64,000 bases of DNA, taken from positions 558,001 to 622,000 of the forward strand of contig NZ_SJPX01000001.1 in assembly GCF_007860175.1 (NCBI RefSeq), given 5' to 3'. Shown here piece by piece: positions 49,953-59,603 of the stretch. Under the pieces are notes generated by a model. The model had not been told where the DNA came from and made no database searches. It saw only the letters and a program-made list of their open reading frames with translations. The stretch is from Rubripirellula reticaptiva. Lineage in GTDB: Bacteria > Planctomycetota > Planctomycetia > Pirellulales > Pirellulaceae. Numbering within the stretch: the stretch's first letter is position 1; each line of letters starts with the position of its first letter. The translations under genes were made by a program, and so were the position numbers.

Positions 49953-50363
49953 TTGCCAAACTTCATCCGAATCGCCGCTCGCACGATCGCCTATTCGTGG
50001 GCGTCGCCCAACACGATCTTGGGCATCACGATCGGATTGCTGTTAGGCGGCAGGTTTCAGTGTGTCGATGGAGTCATTGAAATTCATGGCCGAGGCGTCG
50101 CCAACGTACTGGGGCGACTGCTCGTGCCCGCGATGGCGATGACTCTCGGTCACGTCGTGCTCGGCCGTGATCCGATTTCCCTGAATGTCACTCGCAATCA
50201 CGAACGCGTGCATGTCCGGCAATACGAGCGATGGGGAATCGCATTCGTACCAGCCTACTTGGCATGCTGGTTGGTGCTATCCCTTCGCGGCCGCGACGGG
50301 TATCGTGATAACCCGTTCGAGATCGAAGCATATGCGGTCGATAGTCTGACAACCACAAAGTAG
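49953..50363 (+). CDS. Small membrane-type protein with an HExxH-like motif
   Basis: A 136-residue protein. The start is a TTG at 49953; a stop lies 13 bases upstream in frame and no ATG fits. Hydrophobic segments are at about 20-34 (TILGITIGLLLGG), 50-62 (LLVPAMAMTLGHVVLG) and 95-110 (FVPAYLACWLVLSL). Between them is VTRNHERVHVRQYERWG, where H-E-R-V-H resembles the zinc-binding motif of metalloproteases, and a later Glu in NPFEIEAYAVD might be a third ligand. I do not recognise the family with confidence. The gene is convergent with plsC (18 bases between stops). Confidence 0.6.
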   Translation: MPNFIRIAARTIAYSWASPNTILGITIGLLLGGRFQCVDGVIEIHGRGVANVLGRLLVPAMAMTLGHVVLGRDPISLNVTRNHERVHVRQYERWGIAFVPAYLACWLVLSLRGRDGYRDNPFEIEAYAVDSLTTTK

Positions 50364-50381
50364 TGACCACCATAAAACAGA

Positions 50382-51038
50382 TCACCAGCTTTCAACAGGC
50401 AGCTCGGCCTTCAACTGCTGCATCGCGCCGGTCAACTGATCCATCAGCTCCTTCTTCCCGAGGCCCTGTTCCAGTGGCGTGCCCACAAACATGTCGCAAA
50501 AGAACGGGACAAGAATCGCTTCCCCCTTGGGCAGTGCCTTGCCCAGCCCATGCATGAACACCGGAGTGATCGGAACGTCTGGATGTCGCTTGGCCAAGTG
50601 AGCGATACCGCTTTGGAACTCCGTCATCTGTTCCGGCTCGCCGCGGCTCCCTTCGGGAAACAACAACACGATCGCGCCCGCACGCAGCGCCTCGGAAATC
50701 GGCTCGAGCGGATGCTTGCCGTCCTCGCGACGCGCCTTCGTGCGATCAATCGGAATGATGCCAACAATGCGAGTCGAAAACCAACGGCGCAGCGGGCGAG
50801 TTAAAAAATAGTCCGCTGCCGCAACCGGACGCACGCGGGCAAGCCGATGAAGCCCAAGCACGTTCATCAGCGCGAACGTATCCAAGTGGCTGTTGTGATT
50901 GGCAACGATGATCGCCGGCCCCGTCTCGGGCAACTGCGCAACGCGTCGGACGTTCGTGCCCAACACGATCATCATCAGCGGACGGACCACCAATGCAAAG
51001 AATGCATAACGCAGCGGTCGATTGACTGTATTTTCCAT
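50382..51038 (-). CDS. plsC: 1-acyl-glycerol-3-phosphate acyltransferase (PlsC-type)
   Basis: A 218-residue membrane-associated acyltransferase. The start is the ATG at 51038, overlapping the cdsA stop by one base (TGATG). The H(x)4D motif is in AIIVANHNSHLDTFALM; the second block is VGIIPIDRTKARRED, and the third is VLLFPEGSRGEPEQM with the glycerol-phosphate binding P-E-G-S. The fourth, VPITPVFMHGLG, has the conserved Pro. It would convert lysophosphatidic to phosphatidic acid, the substrate of the CdsA-like neighbour. Its coupling to cdsA and the two lipid genes on the other strand suggest a dedicated lipid pathway. Confidence 0.9.
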   Translation of the reverse strand: MENTVNRPLRYAFFALVVRPLMMIVLGTNVRRVAQLPETGPAIIVANHNSHLDTFALMNVLGLHRLARVRPVAAADYFLTRPLRRWFSTRIVGIIPIDRTKARREDGKHPLEPISEALRAGAIVLLFPEGSRGEPEQMTEFQSGIAHLAKRHPDVPITPVFMHGLGKALPKGEAILVPFFCDMFVGTPLEQGLGKKELMDQLTGAMQQLKAELPVESW

Positions 51039-52012
51039 CAACCGTACATGTAGTAAACGAAGTGAAAGAATAACGGTGCCGTAAACACCAACGAATCAAC
51101 TCGGTCAAGAACGCCGCCGTGACCGGGCAATGTCGCGCCAAAGTCTTTGATCTTCAAGTCTCGCTTGAGTGCCGACATACACAAATCGCCCGCAAAGCCA
51201 GCCAGTCCGATCACGACTCCCGCCGCCAACGAACTCGGCCGATCCATCAACGTCAATCGAGGCCCGACGATCGCCGCAACGACGACCGTGGTCGCCACAC
51301 CGCCAACCAACCCAGCCCAAGTTTTGCCCGGGCTTACCAGCGGAGCGACCTTGGCACCGCCGATCGACTTGCCCCAAAGATACTGAAAAATATCGTTCAG
51401 TTCTGTCATCAGAATCAGAAACACCAACAGCCCTGGCCCAGGACTCGTCTCGGCAATCGCCGACGGAAACTCAGCCGCCACGCGAGCCGTTTCGCCAGGC
51501 GACACGACCAGCAAGAACGCGGCGTGTGACAGGCTGAACACGGTGATCATCAACGCCCAGTGCAACGAACCGGCCGCACGCAAGAATCCATCGGTTTGTC
51601 CGATCATCCACATTCTCGTAGGCAGCCAAACGAACATCATCACCGGAATGAACACGATGAACATGCCGTACCAACCGCGTGCGGCAAGCCAATATTGAAT
51701 CGGGACGGAAAGATAAGCGTAAAACAGCACCCGCCGATCGGCGCGGCGTGTCGGCGTCATCGACAGGAATTCCTTGAGCGCCAAGAAACTGACGAACCCA
51801 AAGAAGCCGATCGCCGCGGTCGTCGACCACATCAACGACAACGAGAAAATTCCAACGATCGCCCACCACGTCCGTACGCGGCACCGCAGTTCGTGAAAAT
51901 CACGATCCGGCTTCCATCGCTTCAACCCGATCGTAATCGCGCTGGACACCGCCAACGCCGAAAACAGGCAAAGGAGCGTTGTGCGAACTTCGGGAGCGAG
52001 GTGATTCATCAT
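51038..52012 (-). CDS. cdsA: Phosphatidate cytidylyltransferase (CdsA/YnbB-type)
   Basis: A 324-residue integral membrane enzyme making CDP-diacylglycerol from phosphatidic acid and CTP. The family signature is complete near the C-terminus: SALKRDLKIKDFGATLPGHGG followed by VLDRVDSLVF, with S-x-x-K-R-D, K-D, PGHGG and D-R-x-D. About eight membrane helices precede it. The length (usual 270-300) is a little long; the N-terminal extra part includes a TM and the loop with RTWWAIVGI. It is the first gene of the minus-strand pair and is divergent from the PAP2-DSP gene, with 138 bases between that should hold both promoters. Confidence 0.92.
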   Translation of the reverse strand: MMNHLAPEVRTTLLCLFSALAVSSAITIGLKRWKPDRDFHELRCRVRTWWAIVGIFSLSLMWSTTAAIGFFGFVSFLALKEFLSMTPTRRADRRVLFYAYLSVPIQYWLAARGWYGMFIVFIPVMMFVWLPTRMWMIGQTDGFLRAAGSLHWALMITVFSLSHAAFLLVVSPGETARVAAEFPSAIAETSPGPGLLVFLILMTELNDIFQYLWGKSIGGAKVAPLVSPGKTWAGLVGGVATTVVVAAIVGPRLTLMDRPSSLAAGVVIGLAGFAGDLCMSALKRDLKIKDFGATLPGHGGVLDRVDSLVFTAPLFFHFVYYMYG

Positions 52013-52150
52013 GGCGTTGTCTTTGTAAGAGTCTCAAAAGATAGAGCCTCCGACGGCAAAAATCTGCGCCGCGCTGCAAGATAGTCAGGCTCTTAACCTA
52101 GACACCGCCAATTTGGGCTTCACAGCAGCACGATTTGAAGACATCCGCCG

Positions 52151-53470
52151 ATGAACCAAGACGAATCGCTCATCGACGACTCAATCTCTCCTGATCGCGT
52201 TTCGTTGACCGATGCCGCGAAAGTCGCGTTTGTGACGTCGGCTCTGTTCTTGGTGCTCTACGGTGGCGCGTCGTATGTGACCAGCCTCAAGACCGACGTC
52301 AGCACCTGGTACTACCAATGGGAACGGTGGATTCCCTTCGTACCAATCATGATCGTGCCCTACATGTCGATCGATCTGTTTTTTGTAGCGGCCCCGTTTC
52401 TGTGCCGCGACCGAAAAGAACTGAAAGTCTTGGCCCTTCGATTTTCAGCCGTCGTGATCGCCGCCGCCACCTGTTTTCTGTTATTCCCGCTGCAGTTGGC
52501 CGTGGAGCGCCCCATCGCGTCAGGATTCTTCGGCGACATCTACAACTGGTTCACCGCCATGGACCGGCCTTACAACCTGTGTCCGTCGATGCACATCGCA
52601 CTTCGAACCGTGCTGGCCGTTCACTTTGATAAACACAGTCCCAACCGAATAACGCGAGTTGCTTCACACTTCTGGTTCTTTCTGATCGGCTGTTCGACCC
52701 TGCTCCTTTACCAGCACCATGTCATCGATGTGGTCGGCGGCTTTGTGTTGGCAGTTTTAGTGATGTACTTCATCGACGGCCGAACCTGGAAAACACCACA
52801 CACAGGCGGACGCCGATTCGCGATTGGCTACGCGATACTGGCGATCGGATTTGCATTGCCCGTCATTTTTGTACCGTCTTTTAGTTGGTTGATGCTGTGG
52901 CCTGCGGTTGCCTGCGCGATCGTTGCGACGGGTTACGGATGGCTAGGACCGTCGGTGTATCGCCGCGAAGCGGGCCAGATCAGTTGGCCGGCAAAGCTAG
53001 TGCTCGGACCGGTGCTGGCGGCGCAGTGGTTGTCGTGGAAATACTACGCACGCCAGTCGGCGATGATCGACCATGTCGCTGATGGCGTTTGGATCGGTCG
53101 ACATCTTGCCGAGGCCGAAGCCAGTAATATCGTCGGTAAAAAAGTGTCAGCCGTGATCGATGTATGCAATGCATTCGACGAACCAGCATCGCTTAATGGG
53201 ATCACGCGACTCGAGCTCCCGATCCTGGACCTAACCGCGCCTTCGCAGTCGCAACTCGACCAAGCCGTCGACTTCATCTCGCAACACCATCACACCGGAG
53301 TGCTGGTACATTGCAAGGCAGGATACTCACGCAGCGTTGCCATCGTCGCCGCGTGGTTGATCCAAACCGAACGAACAACATCGGCCGACGAAGCGTTCGA
53401 CATGATCCGAACGGCACGCCCGGCCGTTGTGATTCGTCCCGAGATACGCCGACTCTTTCAATCGAGCTGA
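52151..53470 (+). CDS. PAP2 phosphatase fused to a dual-specificity phosphatase (YnbD-like)
   Basis: A 439-residue fusion. Residues about 20-290 are membrane and PAP2-like: six or more helices, with AVERPIASG as a weak first motif, YNLCPSMHIALRTVLA holding the P-S-x-H core, and LYQHHVIDVVGGF with the active-site His and Asp. Residues about 310-439 are a dual-specificity phosphatase: GVWIGRHLAEAEAS, then VLVHCKAGYSRSVAIVAAWL with the C-x5-R loop. The architecture and length agree with what I remember for E. coli YnbD (about 430). It would remove phosphate from a lipid or phosphoester; eukaryotic PTPMT1, also a DSP, removes phosphate from phosphatidylglycerophosphate. The CDP-alcohol transferase gene follows after 9 bases. 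Confidence 0.85.
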   Translation: MNQDESLIDDSISPDRVSLTDAAKVAFVTSALFLVLYGGASYVTSLKTDVSTWYYQWERWIPFVPIMIVPYMSIDLFFVAAPFLCRDRKELKVLALRFSAVVIAAATCFLLFPLQLAVERPIASGFFGDIYNWFTAMDRPYNLCPSMHIALRTVLAVHFDKHSPNRITRVASHFWFFLIGCSTLLLYQHHVIDVVGGFVLAVLVMYFIDGRTWKTPHTGGRRFAIGYAILAIGFALPVIFVPSFSWLMLWPAVACAIVATGYGWLGPSVYRREAGQISWPAKLVLGPVLAAQWLSWKYYARQSAMIDHVADGVWIGRHLAEAEASNIVGKKVSAVIDVCNAFDEPASLNGITRLELPILDLTAPSQSQLDQAVDFISQHHHTGVLVHCKAGYSRSVAIVAAWLIQTERTTSADEAFDMIRTARPAVVIRPEIRRLFQSS

Positions 53471-53479
53471 TCGACTATC

Positions 53480-54085
53480 ATGCCCAGCGTCTACGACTTA
53501 AAACCCAAGTTTCAAAACCTACTACGGCCAATCTGCACACGCATGGCAACAGCCGGCGTGACAGCGAATCAGGTCACGATCGGCGCGGTCGCATTGTCGT
53601 TCATTGGCGGCGCATTGATCGCAGCCTATCCAGACAGATGGTGGGCACTGGCAGCGATGCCGATCCTCTTACTGGTCCGCATGGCACTCAACGCGATCGA
53701 TGGCATGTTGGCTCGCGAATTTGGAATGAAAAGCCGCTTAGGCGCCGTACTGAATGAACTAGGCGACGTGATCAGCGACGTGGCGCTTTACCTGCCAATG
53801 GCACTAGTCCCAAACGTTCCGATGTGGGGCATCGTCGCCTTCGTGTTACAAGCCGTGATTATTGAATTCGCCGGAGTCATCGCCATCCAAATCGGCAGCC
53901 CCCGAGGCTACGCCGGTCCGATGGGAAAAAGCGACCGAGCGTTCTGGATGGGTACACTAGCAACGCTACTCGCACTCGACAGGATCAGCCCCGCCGGCAC
54001 CACCATTTACTTGTCAGTCTTGACGCTGCTCGGCGTCGGTACGGTGATCCGACGAGCACGGATCGCACTGAATCAAGTTGCCTAA
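53480..54085 (+). CDS. CDP-alcohol phosphatidyltransferase (YnbA-like)
   Basis: A 201-residue membrane enzyme that moves the phosphatidyl group of CDP-diacylglycerol to an alcohol. The motif region is AIDGMLAREFGMKSRLG, then AVLNELGDVISD: D-G-x2-A-R-x8-G fits, but the next acid position is Asn (L-N-E-L-G-D), where most members have Asp; the last Asp is kept. Five to six helices surround it (IGAVALSFIGGALIAAYP; LAAMPILLLVRMAL). Its length equals E. coli YnbA as I recall. The alcohol substrate is unknown. It is 9 bases after the PAP2-DSP gene, so product dephosphorylation is probably the next step. Confidence 0.87.
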   Translation: MPSVYDLKPKFQNLLRPICTRMATAGVTANQVTIGAVALSFIGGALIAAYPDRWWALAAMPILLLVRMALNAIDGMLAREFGMKSRLGAVLNELGDVISDVALYLPMALVPNVPMWGIVAFVLQAVIIEFAGVIAIQIGSPRGYAGPMGKSDRAFWMGTLATLLALDRISPAGTTIYLSVLTLLGVGTVIRRARIALNQVA

Positions 54086-54717
54086 CTGGGTGTCCGCCCA
54101 GACCAACGAAAACAACCAATTCATCGCGTTGAATCAAAACAGTGAAATTGTTGTCCGCTCGATCGTTAGCATTCCTAAATTTGTCTACCGTCCCCTGGAA
54201 TGATCGCGGATTGGCTTCCAACGATTTTTCCTCGTGACAAACCGTCACAGCAGAAAACGGGAAAACCGTTTCTGCTGTTGACCGTCGATTCGCGGTCGCT
54301 CGACTTGTTGAGCCGCGGATATTCTCAGCAGATTCGCTCATCCGCGAGGCAACCGTTGCCCGTTTCGGTTCGCTTCCTCTACAAGACTCTCCGGCGTCCC
54401 AGCAGCACGTTTGCACATGCGTCCGAGCCGTTCCAACACATCGCACCAGCCGCAAACGTCCAACCCGATAAGTATCGCCAGCAGTGTGACTATGAAAATC
54501 GATCAGCCCATCATGGAGTGATTATTCGATAGCGAGGTTAAGTCGCGGGTTGGGCTTGGGCTCCGTTGCAAACGCTGCCATCGAGGCATTTGCAATGCTC
54601 AATTGCCCTTCAAAACCCTGACTTTGGTGACCGCACGCAAGGGGGTGGTTACAATCTCCGTCGTGAACGATTTCTACCTCCAATCACCGATGCCAAATGA
54701 ATGTCACAAGAACAAAC
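54086..54717. other. About 630-base spacer with one hairpin
   Basis: No convincing gene: the open frames on both strands look like chance ones (biased toward Arg and Ser, no pattern). A hairpin at 54248-54277 pairs CAGCAGAAAACGG with CCGTTTCTGCTG (one bulge), loop GAAAA. It lacks a T-run, so it may be a repeat or an RNA processing site rather than a terminator. Confidence 0.4.
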
Positions 54718-55431
54718 ATGATTCGAGTTGCAATGCTGATCAGCTTCGCGGTGTTCCAAGAGGCCGCAGCGGCCGAATTGAACCACTTGCAACCGATTCT
54801 GGCGAAGCCGGGCAAGGTGGTACTGGATATGGATTTCGAAACCGACTTTGTTGTCGACAAGAACCATAAGTCCTTTGTCTGCGGCCAAGGAACTACCTGG
54901 AAAGCAAAGCAAGGGATGCTGGTCGGGACGGAGTCTTCGCCCGAATACCAAGCAAAGAAAAAGGCTCAAGGGAATGGGCATCTCGGAACGGCACCCCGAC
55001 TGCAAATTCGAGACTCGCCGCGCGATGTGATCTTGAAGTACTCGTTCAAAATCGTCGGGGGCAAAGGAACCAAGCTGCTGCCGATGATCGAAGCGGGACA
55101 CCATTTACGAAGAATCTATTTCGGTTCGGATGGCAGCCAAATTTTGGTCGATCACGAGAAGAAGGCGATCGCCAAAAGTGACTTCGTTCTACAGCAAGAC
55201 CAGTGGTACCACGTCATGATCGAAATCAAAGGAGACGAATTCTTGGTCCGGTTCCAAGACGGCCCCACCATCTACGCAAGCGATCCAGGCGTCGGTGCCG
55301 ACTTCGCCAATTACACGATTGGAATCACGGCGACGGACAAAGGTACGATTTACATCGACAATCTTGCGATGTGGGATGTTGCGGACATTCGTCCCAGCTG
55401 GGCATCAGTGAAAGCGAATCTCGCCCCGTAA
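54718..55431 (+). CDS. Exported beta-sandwich protein of lectin/DUF1080-like fold
   Basis: A 237-residue protein with a signal peptide from the ATG at 54718 (MIRVAMLISFAVFQEAAAA); the ATG at 54697 adds seven residues. The mature part has concanavalin-like features: KVVLDMDFETDFVVDKNH, then DVILKYSFKIVGGKGTKL, RIYFGSDGSQILVDHE, and QWYHVMIEIKGDEFLVRFQD, ending YIDNLAMWDV. These match DUF1080-type or laminin-G-like sandwich domains common in planctomycetes. The ligand is unknown. The gene separates the two parts of the lipid set. Confidence 0.78.
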   Translation: MIRVAMLISFAVFQEAAAAELNHLQPILAKPGKVVLDMDFETDFVVDKNHKSFVCGQGTTWKAKQGMLVGTESSPEYQAKKKAQGNGHLGTAPRLQIRDSPRDVILKYSFKIVGGKGTKLLPMIEAGHHLRRIYFGSDGSQILVDHEKKAIAKSDFVLQQDQWYHVMIEIKGDEFLVRFQDGPTIYASDPGVGADFANYTIGITATDKGTIYIDNLAMWDVADIRPSWASVKANLAP

Positions 55432-55815
55432 CCGCAGGGCAATTCGCCTCAATCTAACCTTTGCCCAATATCTCATCGACGATCCACTCCTCTTCCGATT
55501 TGGCGGCTACTTCCTAGTCAGAGTCGTTCGTTTTCGATTGATCTTTGATCACGACAATGGTCATCAAAAATGAGCGAAACAAGGGTCGAAACAAGGGGCC
55601 CGCGGCAATAATTGACTCTGATGCTTATTTCGGTTGCGTGTGCTTCTTCCGCGAACGTCCAATCGACCGCATCGTGAACGACAGTCCGTAGCGTTCCGCA
55701 GTTTCGTCGACAGCAAGAACTACCCTCGTAAACTTTTCGTCACCACGGGTCGGAACCGCCATCCGGGAGATGGCATAAGCTAGAAACACTCACCCGCGAT
55801 TTGGATGAGCCGTGA
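55432..55815. other. 384-base spacer holding a possible small minus-strand ORF
   Basis: Between convergent genes. A short frame on the minus strand (55625-55762) is listed separately. A duplicated CGAAACAAGGG-like word near 55576-55600 is the only repeat seen. No terminator with a clear stem and T-run is visible. Confidence 0.35.
55625..55762 (-). CDS. Possible small ORF of 45 codons
   Basis: A 45-residue frame opens at ATG 55762 and ends in TAA. The product starts MAVPTRGDEKFTRVVLAVDE and continues with ETAERYGLSFTMRSIGR, then a basic tail (SRKKHTQPK). The amino-acid pattern looks protein-like, and it lies 53 bases downstream of the beta-propeller gene on the same strand. No Shine-Dalgarno site or family match is seen. 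It could be a small gene or a remnant of a longer one. Confidence 0.3.
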   Translation of the reverse strand: MAVPTRGDEKFTRVVLAVDETAERYGLSFTMRSIGRSRKKHTQPK

Positions 55816-57696
55816 TTATTTGACGCCATCGATCGACACAGAGCTTTTCCCGAGGCCGTTCTGAAACTTTTTGCTCAGGAACCGACGGGGTAATTGCATC
55901 GTTTGGAATAGATTGGCCGGAGGTTGTTCAAGTTGCTTGGCCGCCCGCTGTAAACCTCCAGCAATGTGATAGTTGAGATTCCCCGCTTGGTTGGCGGACC
56001 ATAGCTCTTCGCCTCGATGGACGACGGTCACACGGGCTCCGAACGGACGGTAAGTGATCGATTCGGTTTTTCCAGTACCAAAATTGATGTAGTGATCGGT
56101 TCGCTCAGCTGCTCGGACCACTTCGGCTTTCAAGAGTGCTTCAGCACTGATGTCCTGACGATATCCGCTGGACTCAAGAGCCTTGGTTAAATTGGCTTTG
56201 AATGCATCCACATCGCCTCGGACATCATCTTTTATTTCGACTTCAATTCGAAGCGAATCCCCTGCTTGAATTGCAACCAAGGCATTTTGATCGACGGCAG
56301 CACTGAGTTGCGTCACATCTTGGTGTGGAATCCTAACGAATGACAACCAATCATCGTTGATTATCGGAATCCATCCACTTTCCGGCGCCCCCATCCATTC
56401 GTTGACATCCGCAGGAAGTTGATACTTCCAGACGAGCATATTTTTGCGCAGATCCATTAGATATCCGCCGGGTGTGACCAGCACCGCAGGGGCTGTCCAC
56501 AGACTCTCGCCACCGAAGGGAGCCAGGTCAACGTTCGCCTGATGATCAAGAACAACCCTGCCGTCGTTGATTCGGGTAATCACCATACGGTTCTCGCCGT
56601 ACACCGCAAGCATTTTTCCGTCGGGAGAAAAGCAAGGCTGCATCGTCTCTTTGCCGAGATTTGGAATGCTACCTGCGCAGCGTCCCGTGGATGCCTCAAC
56701 AACAAACAGGCGTCCGTTGGCTGCGATTGCCAACCATCGACCTCCCTGCGAAACAGCGGGCTCAAAAAAGGCAGGCACAGGGCAATGCCAGCAAAGGCGA
56801 CCATCGCGACCGTCAAAGACCCGAAGCGTGTTTTCGTAGACACACACGACGGAACCATCAGGCAACAAACGACGATAGTGGCAGTACAAAGGACGAACTT
56901 TTTGCTTGGGAAGCGACCACGCTGAGGCAACTCGGGGTTGTCCAGTCGACAGTCCCGTAATCACGCAGAGTCCCTTGTCGTGGTCGGTTTCGTCACGAAT
57001 CAGGCCAAGTGCTACGCCATGCTGAGGTAAAGTATCGGCGATCCGCACGGTATGGTTTTTGATGCGGACGAGTCGATAATCAGACGGCCGGTCGGTCGAA
57101 ACAAAGATGTCGGTCGAGTGGTCTGAGGCGACACTGTAAACCACCGTTCCCGTGGAGATGTCCAGGACGTAAGGCAGATCAGGATCAGCGTCAAAGGGCA
57201 CCTTATTGATCCGCCGCTTGCCGGCTTGGAAACCACTCCAGTCAAGCACTGTCGGACTCGAAACATCGACCGATGGAAGTTGCTCATTGGTCAACGCGAT
57301 CTCTTCCCCTTCGCCAGGTTCGGCAAGGGTCGGCATCGTAAGTTCAATCGGTTCCGACTTCGAAGCCGGAGGAACAGGCTTGAATACTGAATTCATCTCG
57401 GCCGGCGTCAGTCTAACGCAGGCTTCCCGTTTTACTTGGCGTCGGCTTTTCCGATCGTCGACGCTGACGTCGACAATCAGCAGTCTTCCGTTGGTCGTAG
57501 CTTGGATGACTGGTCCCTGGTAAGTGTTGCCCCGAAGTTCGAAACGAACGTAATCACCAACTTGAATCTCGTTGATTTCCGAATCTTGGGATTGAACTAA
57601 CTGCGCGATCAGTGCAATCAACAGGCACGACAAAAGCAATCGTCGAATCAAAACACGAACGTCGCTTTCCGATTGAAGAATCATAAAATGTCGCAT
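55816..57696 (-). CDS. Membrane-anchored beta-propeller-type protein
   Basis: A 626-residue protein. The start at ATG 57696 precedes a hydrophobic segment (LLLSCLLIALIAQLVQS), a signal or anchor; a frame upstream to 57747 is less likely. A small beta domain follows (EIQVGDYVRFELRGNTYQG) that resembles a Tudor/agenet-like barrel. The middle (about 150-450) is a WD40/YVTN-like propeller: CFSPDGKMLAVYGENRMVI, VVCVYENTLRVFDGRDGRLCW. The C-terminal part (about 480-600) is a different domain with GDSLRIEVEIKDDVRGDVDA and TVVHRGEELWSANQAGNLNYH. No enzymatic motif is visible. Proteins with this layout are frequent in planctomycetes; function unknown. Confidence 0.75.
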   Translation of the reverse strand: MRHFMILQSESDVRVLIRRLLLSCLLIALIAQLVQSQDSEINEIQVGDYVRFELRGNTYQGPVIQATTNGRLLIVDVSVDDRKSRRQVKREACVRLTPAEMNSVFKPVPPASKSEPIELTMPTLAEPGEGEEIALTNEQLPSVDVSSPTVLDWSGFQAGKRRINKVPFDADPDLPYVLDISTGTVVYSVASDHSTDIFVSTDRPSDYRLVRIKNHTVRIADTLPQHGVALGLIRDETDHDKGLCVITGLSTGQPRVASAWSLPKQKVRPLYCHYRRLLPDGSVVCVYENTLRVFDGRDGRLCWHCPVPAFFEPAVSQGGRWLAIAANGRLFVVEASTGRCAGSIPNLGKETMQPCFSPDGKMLAVYGENRMVITRINDGRVVLDHQANVDLAPFGGESLWTAPAVLVTPGGYLMDLRKNMLVWKYQLPADVNEWMGAPESGWIPIINDDWLSFVRIPHQDVTQLSAAVDQNALVAIQAGDSLRIEVEIKDDVRGDVDAFKANLTKALESSGYRQDISAEALLKAEVVRAAERTDHYINFGTGKTESITYRPFGARVTVVHRGEELWSANQAGNLNYHIAGGLQRAAKQLEQPPANLFQTMQLPRRFLSKKFQNGLGKSSVSIDGVK

Positions 57697-57808
57697 GGGT
57701 TCAAATGATGCGGTGAGATCTGCACGGTGGTCGTGAGCGTTGGTCACCGTCCGAATCCGAATGTAAAATTCTAACCAAATTTGAAATCGCGTGAATACGA
57801 TCGGGTTC

Positions 57809-57869
57809 GATGGGCTCTTTCTAGTTGACCTGAAACTTTTTAGTCATTCGATCACCCAGAGAGCCCATC
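57809..57869 (+). promoter_or_regulatory. Hairpin ending one base before the ATG of the YnbC-like gene
   Basis: GATGGGCTCTTT at 57809-57820 pairs with AGAGAGCCCATC at 57858-57869 (11 Watson-Crick pairs and one G-T), with a 37-base loop. The right arm ends directly before the ATG at 57870. The stem would cover the ribosome-binding region, so translation may depend on opening it by a protein, small RNA or metabolite. It could also be a DNA operator. Confidence 0.6.
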
Positions 57870-59603
57870 ATGCGAGCGGTAACGGAATCTTCATTTTTGG
57901 CGAGCGATGGTCAAGAAATTTTCTATCGCTATTGGAAACCTGATTCACCATCCGATCAGGCCGTGATGATGTTCCACCGTGGCCACGAGCATTCGGGGCG
58001 ATGGCAAAACTTTGTCGACACCAGTGAGTTGGACGATTGTTGGTTCTTTGCTTGGGACGCGAGGGGGCACGGACGGACCGCCGGCGAGCGTGGTGCGGCG
58101 GAGAGTTTTTCGCGCATGGTGAAGGACGCTGACGAGTTCGCCAAACACATCGAAAAAATGCACAAGATCCCACTGAATCAAATGGCTGTCGTCGGCCAGA
58201 GTGTCGGTGCGGTGCTGGCGGCGACATGGATTCATGACTACGCGGCTCCGGTGCGATCACTTGTTTTGGCAACGCCGGCGTTTCGGATCAAATTATACAT
58301 TCCGCTGGCGATCCCGGCCTTGCGTTTGTGGAATCACATTCGGCCGGGCGGTTTTATCAAGAGCTATGTCCGCCCAGGAATGTTGACTCATGACACTGAC
58401 CAAGCCAAAGCGTACGCCGACGACCCGCTAGTTTCGCCTCAGATTGCAACCAACATTCTGTTAGATCTGTACGACGCGTCGACTCGTTTGGTGAACGACG
58501 CTAGTGCCATCCACACGCCGACGCTGATGTTCGTATCGGGCAAAGACTATGTCGTTCGCCAGGACGTGCAGCATCAGTTCTTTAATCGGTTGTCGTCGAC
58601 GGATAAGCAAATTGAGGTACTCGACGACTTCTACCACAGCACATTCTGGGAAGCCGGTCGCGGCGACGTGATTCGCCGCAGTGGCGATTTCATTCGCGAA
58701 CGCTTCGTAACGCCAACCGCTGAGTTGCCAAGCGAAACGGCAGCGAAGGGATCGCTTTCCACGTACGAACAACTAAAACAGCCGCCATCGGCTATCAGCC
58801 GCGCGTGGTTCGGACTGCAAAGTCTTTCCTTAGGAACGGCCGGTCGGCTCAGTCGAGGAGTTCGGATTGGGTGGCGAGACGGTTTTGATTCGGGACAATC
58901 GCTCGATCATGTCTATCGCAACCGGGCTGAGGGCACCACGCCGATCGGCCGGTTGATCGATCGAGGATACCTCGATTCGATTGGTTGGCAGGGAATCCGC
59001 CAACGCAAAGTCAACATGGAACGTTTACTCGATGAAGCGATCGCGCAGCAGATCGATCGCTTTGGTGAGATCACGATCCTGGATATTGCGGCGGGCCCAG
59101 GCCGATACGTTCTAGAGACACTCAAACGCAACGAATCTTTACCCATTCGGGCGATCCTTTGCGATCGCGACCCCGGTGGAATCGCCGAAGGAAAAGTGAT
59201 CGCCGCCGAGTTGGGACTATCTGATCGCGTCGAGTTTCGGCAAAGTGATGCGTTTGATCCGGCGAAGATCGGTGACGCCGTCGGTGATCGGTCGGTTCAT
59301 ATCGCGATTGTTTCGGGGCTGTACGAATTGTTCCCCGACAACCAGCCCGTCCAACGATCGTTAGCGGGTGTCGCCGATGTTTTGGTCGAGGGCGGGCGAT
59401 TGCTATACACCGACCAGCCTTGGCATCCTCAACAAGAAATGATCGCACGAGTGCTGCCCAACCGCGACGGCGATCCGTGGGTGATGCGTTGCCGAAGCCA
59501 AGCGGAAATGGATGCGTTGGTCCGCGAGGCAGGGTTTGGTCGTGATCAAATGCTGGTTGATCGCTGGGGAATCTTCAGCGTCGCCACGGCAGTGAAATGC
59601 TAA
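57870..59603 (+). CDS. Alpha/beta-hydrolase fused to a SAM methyltransferase (YnbC-like)
   Basis: A 577-residue fusion. Residues 1 to about 285 form an alpha/beta hydrolase related to monoacylglycerol lipases: AVMMFHRGHEHSGRWQNF (oxyanion), AWDARGHGRTAG, and MAVVGQSVGAVLAATW with the G-Q-S-V-G elbow; the His is in VLDDFYHSTFWE. Residues about 390-577 form a class I methyltransferase: EITILDIAAGPGRYVLETL (SAM motif I), RAILCDRDPGGIAEG, VHIAIVSGLYELFPDN. E. coli YnbC has, as I remember, the same fusion and about the same length. The presence of YnbA/B/D-like genes nearby supports a shared lipid pathway. The hydrolase may cut an acyl ester and the methyltransferase may modify a head group; both are inference. 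Confidence 0.85.
   Translation: MRAVTESSFLASDGQEIFYRYWKPDSPSDQAVMMFHRGHEHSGRWQNFVDTSELDDCWFFAWDARGHGRTAGERGAAESFSRMVKDADEFAKHIEKMHKIPLNQMAVVGQSVGAVLAATWIHDYAAPVRSLVLATPAFRIKLYIPLAIPALRLWNHIRPGGFIKSYVRPGMLTHDTDQAKAYADDPLVSPQIATNILLDLYDASTRLVNDASAIHTPTLMFVSGKDYVVRQDVQHQFFNRLSSTDKQIEVLDDFYHSTFWEAGRGDVIRRSGDFIRERFVTPTAELPSETAAKGSLSTYEQLKQPPSAISRAWFGLQSLSLGTAGRLSRGVRIGWRDGFDSGQSLDHVYRNRAEGTTPIGRLIDRGYLDSIGWQGIRQRKVNMERLLDEAIAQQIDRFGEITILDIAAGPGRYVLETLKRNESLPIRAILCDRDPGGIAEGKVIAAELGLSDRVEFRQSDAFDPAKIGDAVGDRSVHIAIVSGLYELFPDNQPVQRSLAGVADVLVEGGRLLYTDQPWHPQQEMIARVLPNRDGDPWVMRCRSQAEMDALVREAGFGRDQMLVDRWGIFSVATAVKC

Follow-up and report, generated by a model that had tools for sequence, protein, structure and literature searches.

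The 64,000-nucleotide window analysed here, from the planctomycete Rubripirellula reticaptiva (contig NZ_SJPX01000001.1, positions 558,001 to 622,000; source genome of 7.85 Mb), carries counterparts of all four genes of the Escherichia coli ynbABCD operon together with a gene for a PlsC-type acyltransferase. Comparison across genomes suggests that they are part of a widespread cassette, and reveals that the constant unit of this set is PlsC-YnbB-YnbA, with YnbC and YnbD as add-ons, and that YnbA, a variant homologue of the cytidine diphosphate (CDP)-alcohol phosphotransferases, carries asparagine in place of two active-site aspartates in every member checked. These results, like the homologies and the intact catalytic residues described below, come from sequence, structure prediction and gene context. 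As such, they support, at moderate probability, a model in which PlsC, YnbB and YnbA form a dedicated phospholipid route, with YnbD and YnbC as optional finishing enzymes.

The five genes are open reading frames at the coordinates given by an earlier note on this DNA, which had described plsC and cdsA on the minus strand, a PAP2-dual-specificity phosphatase (DSP) fusion and a CDP-alcohol transferase on the plus strand, and a hydrolase-methyltransferase fusion 3.8 kb further on; that layout is confirmed:

50382-51041, minus strand: PlsC-type acyltransferase of the Ynb-linked subfamily (P; Pfam PF01553, 88 bits; HX4D and PEG[ST]R motifs)
51038-52012, minus strand: YnbB-like CDP-diacylglycerol synthase, a CdsA paralogue (Pfam PF01148, CTP_transf_1, 201 bits)
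52151-53470, plus strand: YnbD-like PAP2-DSP fusion (DSPc, 66 bits)
53480-54085, plus strand: YnbA-like variant CDP-alcohol phosphotransferase (CDP-OH_P_transf, 40 bits)
57870-59603, plus strand: YnbC-like fusion of an alpha/beta hydrolase and an S-adenosylmethionine (SAM) methyltransferase (Hydrolase_4, 202 bits; Methyltransf_20, 349 bits)

Compared by blastp with the E. coli K-12 reference taken from NC_000913, all four Ynb proteins of the window aligned over nearly their full length, with identities of 41.5% over 195 amino acids for YnbA (1e-40), 40.9% over 313 for YnbB (1e-74), 45.1% over 577 for YnbC (5e-175) and 30.1% over 415 for YnbD (1e-58). They were the mutual best matches of YnbA-D among the candidates compared, namely the genome's loci with PF01066, PF01148, PF01553 or PF00782 plus the YnbC locus, and on the E. 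coli side CdsA, PgsA, PlsC and YihG; E. coli CdsA and PgsA scored below the Ynb counterpart for each of the four. The equation of the four architectures with YnbA-D, which the earlier note had made, thus holds: mutual best matches to YnbA and YnbB rule out housekeeping CdsA and PgsA as an explanation of the set, and the similarity of the protein encoded at 57.9 kb to YnbC, with 577 amino acids aligned, goes beyond single domains. All four ynb-type genes of the window stand in one neighbourhood (51.0-59.6 kb), although their arrangement differs from that in E. coli, where the order is A-B-C-D on one strand without plsC; in the window, plsC-ynbB is divergent from ynbD-ynbA and ynbC lies further down. 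Of 5426 E. coli genomes, 4242 contain 80% or more of the operon. In each of the five best E. coli matches listed (NZ_CP045457, NZ_CP027118, NZ_CP103515, NZ_CP138399 and NZ_CM129868), an insertion sequence lies inside ynbABCD, but the order of matches may favour records that bear one and no insertion rate can be read from it.

That the grouping is not due to chance is indicated by the fact that these genes stand together in many genomes. A scan of public genomes with the YnbC alignment returned at least 553 relatives, of which the best 80, a choice biased to near relatives, were made into loci; these belong to Pseudomonadota (65 tree rows), Planctomycetota, Acidobacteriota, Rokubacteria, Verrucomicrobiota and Myxococcota. 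With cleaned profiles, the 62 of them with at least 8 kb on both sides contained YnbD in 60 cases, YnbA in 59, YnbB in 58, the PlsC subfamily in 48 and a small protein, S, in 54. PlsC and YnbB were adjacent and on one strand in 56 of the 59 YnbC loci having both.

Starting from YnbA instead of YnbC separates the core from its additions. Two genome samples were searched, with part of the candidates scored in many genomes, so that absences are not firm, and with a call threshold for YnbA of at least 133 bits. In 199 planctomycete genomes, 38 matched the YnbA alignment at E 1e-10, 23 of them at 133 bits or more and the rest at 69 or less; YnbC was found in four, and YnbD matched at E 1e-30 in 18, two over the full length and the others over one half. 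In the second sample, drawn from the class to which a Pseudomonas record belongs, YnbA occurred in 13 of the 229 genomes and YnbC in four. All eight YnbC genomes of the two samples had YnbA, or six of six without the source genome and the centre record, both chosen beforehand. Apart from these two, loci were fetched for 20 of 22 planctomycete and 11 of 12 second-sample YnbA genomes (the planctomycete genomes G062 and G222, and the partial match G324, are not among them). Within 4 kb of YnbA, YnbB was found in 20/20 planctomycete loci (one cut by the contig end) and 10/11 of the second sample, 30/31 in total, and a PlsC of this type in 17/20 and 9/11 (26/31), with L169 having PlsC up to about 5 kb away. 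Full YnbC was found in 3/20 and 3/11 (6/31) and YnbD in 1/20 and 2/11 (3/31). L129 and L130, having contigs of equal length to those of L017 and L014, appear to be the same contigs, and counts from this set therefore overlap with the earlier ones by two. Given that YnbB and PlsC recur at YnbA loci while YnbC and YnbD seldom do, the constant unit is PlsC-YnbB-YnbA. Three further YnbA loci (L143, L173 and L174) likewise have YnbB and PlsC, and a fourth, L172, has neither. When 11 YnbC genomes were searched whole, ten had a YnbA of at least 129 bits; six of the 11 lack YnbA at the YnbC locus, five of which have it elsewhere (L172 is one of these distant copies), and in the sixth, that of L010, the match reaches only 57 bits.

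In other Pirellulaceae, where the earlier note had proposed to check the neighbourhood, the set is rare: the YnbC alignment matched in 31 of 60 genomes, mostly over one domain, and over the full length in three including the source genome, and the only other genome of the genus in this sample lacks full-length YnbC. In a YnbC tree built by a quick method, the window groups with a Rhodopirellula baltica record (Shimodaira-Hasegawa-like approximate likelihood ratio test 100), within a clade of five that also holds two other planctomycetes and one Myxococcota record. The patchy distribution and this placement make transfer of the cassette or its repeated loss likely. YnbA and YnbC form one uninterrupted open frame at L011:8996-11740 and L069:1260-4394, the sources being one planctomycete and one Acetobacteraceae assembly. 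One genome that lacks full-length YnbC has, between YnbB and YnbA, a short segment matching the YnbC C-terminus (L131:8073-8216; 45 bits, profile positions 547-582), which is either a remnant or an assembly gap. At two planctomycete loci, an extra O-methyltransferase-like gene lies near YnbC (L128:6676-7692 and L130:10005-10979). A Pfam scan of 20 neighbours at 12 planctomycete loci, ten of them without YnbC or YnbD, returned no recurring candidate for a head-group-making gene beside the cassette, and otherwise unrelated genes.

The most unusual member of the unit is YnbA. The window protein belongs to the CDP-alcohol phosphotransferase superfamily (PF01066, 40.4 bits against a cut-off of 22; six-helix fold), whose signature is D1xxD2G1xxAR...G2xxxD3xxxD4, with eight residues called absolutely conserved (PMC4634129). 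In the phosphatidylinositol-phosphate (PIP) synthase of Mycobacterium tuberculosis, D68, D71, D89 and D93 form a two-metal site, in which D89 bridges the metals in one chain (PMC6506517). Aligned to that enzyme, the counterparts of D1-D4 in YnbA are N71, D74, N92 and D96; YnbA thus keeps D2 and D4 and departs from the canonical signature by asparagine at D1 and D3. The same replacement was found in 71/71 aligned YnbA, in 40/40 when distant variants were included, at 35/35 loci, most of them without YnbC or YnbD, and in 120/120 best database matches; the four sets overlap in part, and the 71-row alignment predates profile cleaning and omits five distant YnbA, which are within the 40-row set. 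The three other CDP-alcohol phosphotransferases of the source genome, and E. coli PgsA, have aspartate at both positions. By sequence and at E 1e-15, the YnbA family takes in at least 7995 of 7998 scored candidates, some of which may be ordinary relatives. In databases, many YnbA homologues, among them P0002, P0004 and other jgi entries, bear the name phosphatidylglycerol-phosphate (PGP) synthase (PgsA) despite the missing Asp1 and Asp3.

The other residues of the site are retained. N30 and T33, which make up the cytidine-binding (D/N)xx(T/S) motif, are present in 71/71 YnbA, and R153 and R192, invariant in 40/40, align with R155 and R195 of the M. tuberculosis PIP synthase, which bind the acceptor phosphate (PMC4634129). 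The AlphaFold2 model of YnbA (predicted local distance difference test score 95.4) is closest in fold to PIP synthase 5d92 (template-modelling score 0.80), ahead of PGP synthase (0.51-0.56) and phosphatidylserine synthase (about 0.4). Against curated family models, YnbA scores 41 bits for PIP synthase (NF045883, below its cut-off of 170), 69 bits for archaetidylinositol-phosphate synthase and 32 bits for pgsA (TIGR00560, below its cut-off of 109). Hence, YnbA resembles the PIP synthases (PgsA1 of M. tuberculosis, RsPIPS) in fold, cytidine-binding motif, acceptor-phosphate arginines, D2 and D4, but differs from them at D1 and D3 and in not keeping K135, which aligns with G132 of YnbA by manual count. 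Since the remainder of the site is kept and the model is PIP synthase-like, YnbA very probably binds CDP-diacylglycerol (CDP-DAG) together with a phosphorylated acceptor, though its metal site differs; with two of the eight signature residues missing, the usual chemistry should not be taken for granted. Inositol phosphate made de novo is an unlikely acceptor, because the inositol-1-phosphate synthase family PF01658 has no match in the source genome, nor in the E. coli control, and de novo phosphatidylinositol was rejected as the product on the same ground.

The window PlsC lies above the PF01553 cut-off of 23 and scores 259 bits with a profile of 62 Ynb-linked PlsC proteins, itself included, to which E. 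coli PlsC reaches only 56 bits and YihG 13. N48, H49, S51, H52 and D54 are present in 62/62 of these proteins, and P129, E130, G131 and R133 in 61/62, with one gap. The window protein falls below the cut-off of the 1-acylglycerol-3-phosphate acyltransferase model TIGR00530 (60.5 against 102.95 bits). E. coli PlsC (25% identity) prefers L154 to it, and the two are not mutual best matches. A second acyltransferase of the Ynb-linked subfamily (G000:C5:757643-757999, L152; 218 bits) lies elsewhere in the source genome, away from the cassette. YnbB, well above the CTP_transf_1 cut-off of 24, has S280, K283, R284 and D303 in 73/73 aligned rows, while the position of D276 is glycine in 43/73. It shares the catalytic C-terminal motif with CdsA, but the two fall into separate best-match groups, and the N-terminal half of YnbB is, according to a review, not homologous to CdsA (PMC7018664). 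Another CdsA homologue of the source genome (G000:C2:641299-642147, L008/L142), among seemingly housekeeping genes, scores 302 bits with the YnbB profile, and a further one (L007) 95 bits; E. coli CdsA matches all three homologues of the genome about equally (75-78 bits). E. coli YnbB is described as a CdsA paralogue that cannot replace CdsA, even when overproduced (PMC6362211), as would be expected for an enzyme of a minor pathway, and it makes CDP-DAG in vitro (review PMC7018664).

Of the two optional proteins, YnbD consists of a PAP2-superfamily membrane half (about residues 18-285) and a DSP-type phosphatase half (about 300-439), the latter with the Cys-x5-Arg active site and a DSP-type fold. 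The membrane half may be either a PAP2 phosphatase or a transferase of the sphingomyelin-synthase kind. The DSP half has several structural matches tied for best, one of them PTPMT1 bound to phosphatidylinositol 5-phosphate; a specific assignment to PTPMT1 was not upheld, given the tie with other DSPs. From the small DSP-type phosphatases (PTPMT1, Tk-PTP, DUSP5 and DUSP28), YnbD differs by its fusion to the membrane half. YnbC has the catalytic triad S111 (82/82), D226 (82/82) and H256 (81/82) in its N-terminal half, whose matches among solved structures are monoacylglycerol lipases and other lipases, and D405, A407, G409 and G411 (82/82) in its methyltransferase half. It thus shares triad and sequence similarity with monoacylglycerol lipase, but is fused to a SAM methyltransferase of PF12147. 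In most Pseudomonadota loci, a small membrane protein of about 150 amino acids, S, is encoded between YnbD and PlsC/YnbB, bringing the set there to six members (L064:13064-13537 and 58 further profile matches; D82, D104, R125 and L132 invariant in 30 aligned). Neither the window nor the E. coli stretch was found to encode S; no Pfam family was matched by more than one of 30 members at E 0.1, and the one member run against NCBIfam had no match.

We therefore favour, if with restrained confidence, the following route, a dedicated one that supplies its own precursors. PlsC would acylate lyso-phosphatidic acid, YnbB would convert the resulting phosphatidic acid to CDP-DAG, and YnbA, with its altered metal site, would pass the phosphatidyl moiety to a polar molecule that carries a phosphate, X-P; that YnbA is the partner of YnbB is suggested by the gene neighbourhood. 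Where YnbD is present, its DSP half might take off the exposed phosphate at the cytoplasmic face, acting on lipid rather than on protein, and its PAP2-type half might work on the lipid at the other face, by hydrolysis or head-group transfer. YnbC, in the loci that have it, might trim an acyl chain with its lipase half and methylate the head group or product with its methyltransferase half. The dedicated pathway of the earlier note survives in part: PlsC belongs to the set, a phosphorylated acceptor has become likelier through the YnbA arginines and the YnbD DSP domain is intact, but YnbC and YnbD proved to be optional rather than core, and YnbA lacks two of the eight signature residues.

Several observations weigh against this route. 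Asp1 and Asp3, absent from YnbA, help to bind the catalytic metals in PIP synthase (PMC6506517), and YnbA may therefore not catalyse the standard reaction. YnbA has neither YnbB nor PlsC nearby at L162, a 7.1 kb contig, and at L172. Most YnbA loci are without YnbD, which places phosphate removal outside the core. The PAP2 half of YnbD scores below the Pfam cut-offs (PAP2_3, 26 against 27; PAP2, 20.3 against 27.2), and the DSP half ties with protein-phosphatase DSPs and is not specifically PTPMT1-like: in Foldseek, Tk-PTP is the top match and PTPMT1 the 27th, and sequence comparison puts an ancestral-type PTP and Tk-PTP ahead of PTPMT1. An E. coli ynbB knockout grew like its parent, and overproduction of YnbB raises the glycolipid MPIase (membrane protein integrase), which fits another product (both PMC6362211). 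Gene neighbourhood, moreover, is not biochemistry.

The MPIase results lead to the alternative that survives best, although we still consider it unlikely, namely that YnbB, possibly helped by YnbA, couples a sugar-1-phosphate with CDP-DAG to yield a sugar linked to diacylglycerol through pyrophosphate, as in an MPIase-like glycolipid anchor. An acceptor attacking through its own phosphate could explain the changed metal site of YnbA, and the phosphate-binding arginines are kept. In addition to the overproduction effect, it was proposed that N-acetylglucosamine 1-phosphate replaces cytidine monophosphate on CdsA/YnbB; loss of ynbB alone caused no significant change in MPIase, but its effect was exaggerated when Tam41p was expressed (PMC6362211). 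Under CdsA depletion, YnbB restores MPIase and not phospholipids, and it is regarded as a backup for MPIase synthesis (review PMC7018664). However, the published step is assigned to CdsA/YnbB, the main text of that proposal does not contain the term 'ynbA' (PMC6362211), and the domains of YnbD and YnbC have no evident place in MPIase synthesis.

We give somewhat less weight to a second phosphatidylglycerol pathway, an improbable one in our view, in which YnbA would serve as an additional PGP synthase with glycerol-3-phosphate as its substrate, the YnbD DSP half as a PGP phosphatase, and the linked PlsC perhaps as the enzyme setting a special acyl-chain make-up. PTPMT1, the mitochondrial PGP phosphatase, is among the tied structural matches of that half, glycerol-3-phosphate is universal, and databases list many YnbA homologues as CDP-diacylglycerol--glycerol-3-phosphate 3-phosphatidyltransferase. 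Yet the genome's PgsA counterpart is a separate protein (L001, the best match of E. coli PgsA) with aspartate at both positions, and both the fold of YnbA and its family-model scores (41 and 69 against 32 bits) lie nearer to PIP and archaetidylinositol-phosphate synthases than to PGP synthase. There is still less to be said for a non-enzymatic YnbA that binds CDP-DAG and regulates or chaperones YnbB or PlsC. Replacement of D1 and D3 would fit such a role, and changing D4 alone to asparagine nearly abolishes PIP synthase activity (PMC4634129). On the other hand, D2, D4, N30/T33 and the acceptor arginines of YnbA are invariant and the replacing residue is always asparagine. Decayed active sites, by comparison, usually drift. 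The least probable reading of all, and a very improbable one, is that the cassette, mobile or accessory, backs up ordinary phospholipid synthesis and has no distinct product. It would fit the patchy distribution (full-length YnbC in 3/60 Pirellulaceae, YnbA in 13/229 second-sample genomes), but is at odds with the failure of overproduced YnbB to substitute for CdsA (PMC6362211) and with specialised PlsC, YnbB and YnbA subfamilies staying together in both Planctomycetota and the second sample.

A transposon screen for phosphoglyceride-linked enterobacterial common antigen (ECA-PG) flagged ynbB, which its authors confirmed was not necessary (PMC8609368). A ynbC transposon insertion in HMS174(DE3) accumulates polyphosphate, while the Keio deletion does not (PMC2435150), and ynbC was listed as mutated and up-regulated in a persistence study (PMC13313352); we read no function from either. 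Among the open-licence papers listed by our searches, several of which name the genes once or a few times, none appeared to be a functional study of ynbA or ynbD, or to deal with the PlsC-YnbB-YnbA unit or with asparagine at D1 and D3.

The remaining features of the locus are:

52013-52150, no strand: divergent intergenic region of 138 bases between the ynbB-like and ynbD-like genes (from the coordinates)
54697-55431, plus strand: inserted gene between the YnbA-like and YnbC-like genes, with no Pfam match and outside the set
55816-57747, minus strand: second inserted gene between the same two genes, with no Pfam match and outside the set

The plsC and ynbB-like genes form a pair on the minus strand, in which the ynbB-like gene overlaps the start of plsC by 4 bases, and diverge from the ynbD-like and ynbA-like pair on the plus strand. 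The intergenic region between the pairs is a candidate site of two promoters, and a promoter scan of 50-60 kb of the window gave 5 sites against 5.3 expected by chance, thus no excess. The two Pfam-less genes lie in the 3.8 kb insert that splits the YnbC-like gene from the other members. The Pirellulaceae genome G037 (locus L143) has the layout of the window minus the insert, and in the R. baltica record (L009) YnbC directly follows YnbA; neither locus has genes of insert size between YnbA and YnbC. Convergent with plsC, a small protein with a HERVH (HEXXH-type) stretch is encoded at 49953-50363 on the plus strand, with no match in Pfam or NCBIfam.

Together, the present findings turn an uncharacterised E. 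coli operon into a candidate lipid pathway, and the cassette context sets another reading beside the published one, in which YnbB is a backup in MPIase synthesis. Two of eight residues considered absolutely conserved are consistently replaced in the YnbA members checked, including the 120 best matches. A bolder possibility, which we put forward only tentatively, is that YnbA founds a large CDP-alcohol phosphotransferase subfamily with a rebuilt site, holding a changed or single metal, and that it makes, with its own PlsC and CDP-DAG synthase, an undescribed class of phospholipid in E. coli K-12 and many other bacteria, missed as minor or conditional. If the product were found, it would be a membrane lipid overlooked in the best-studied bacterium, and an active YnbA would call for a revision of the family's two-metal mechanism.

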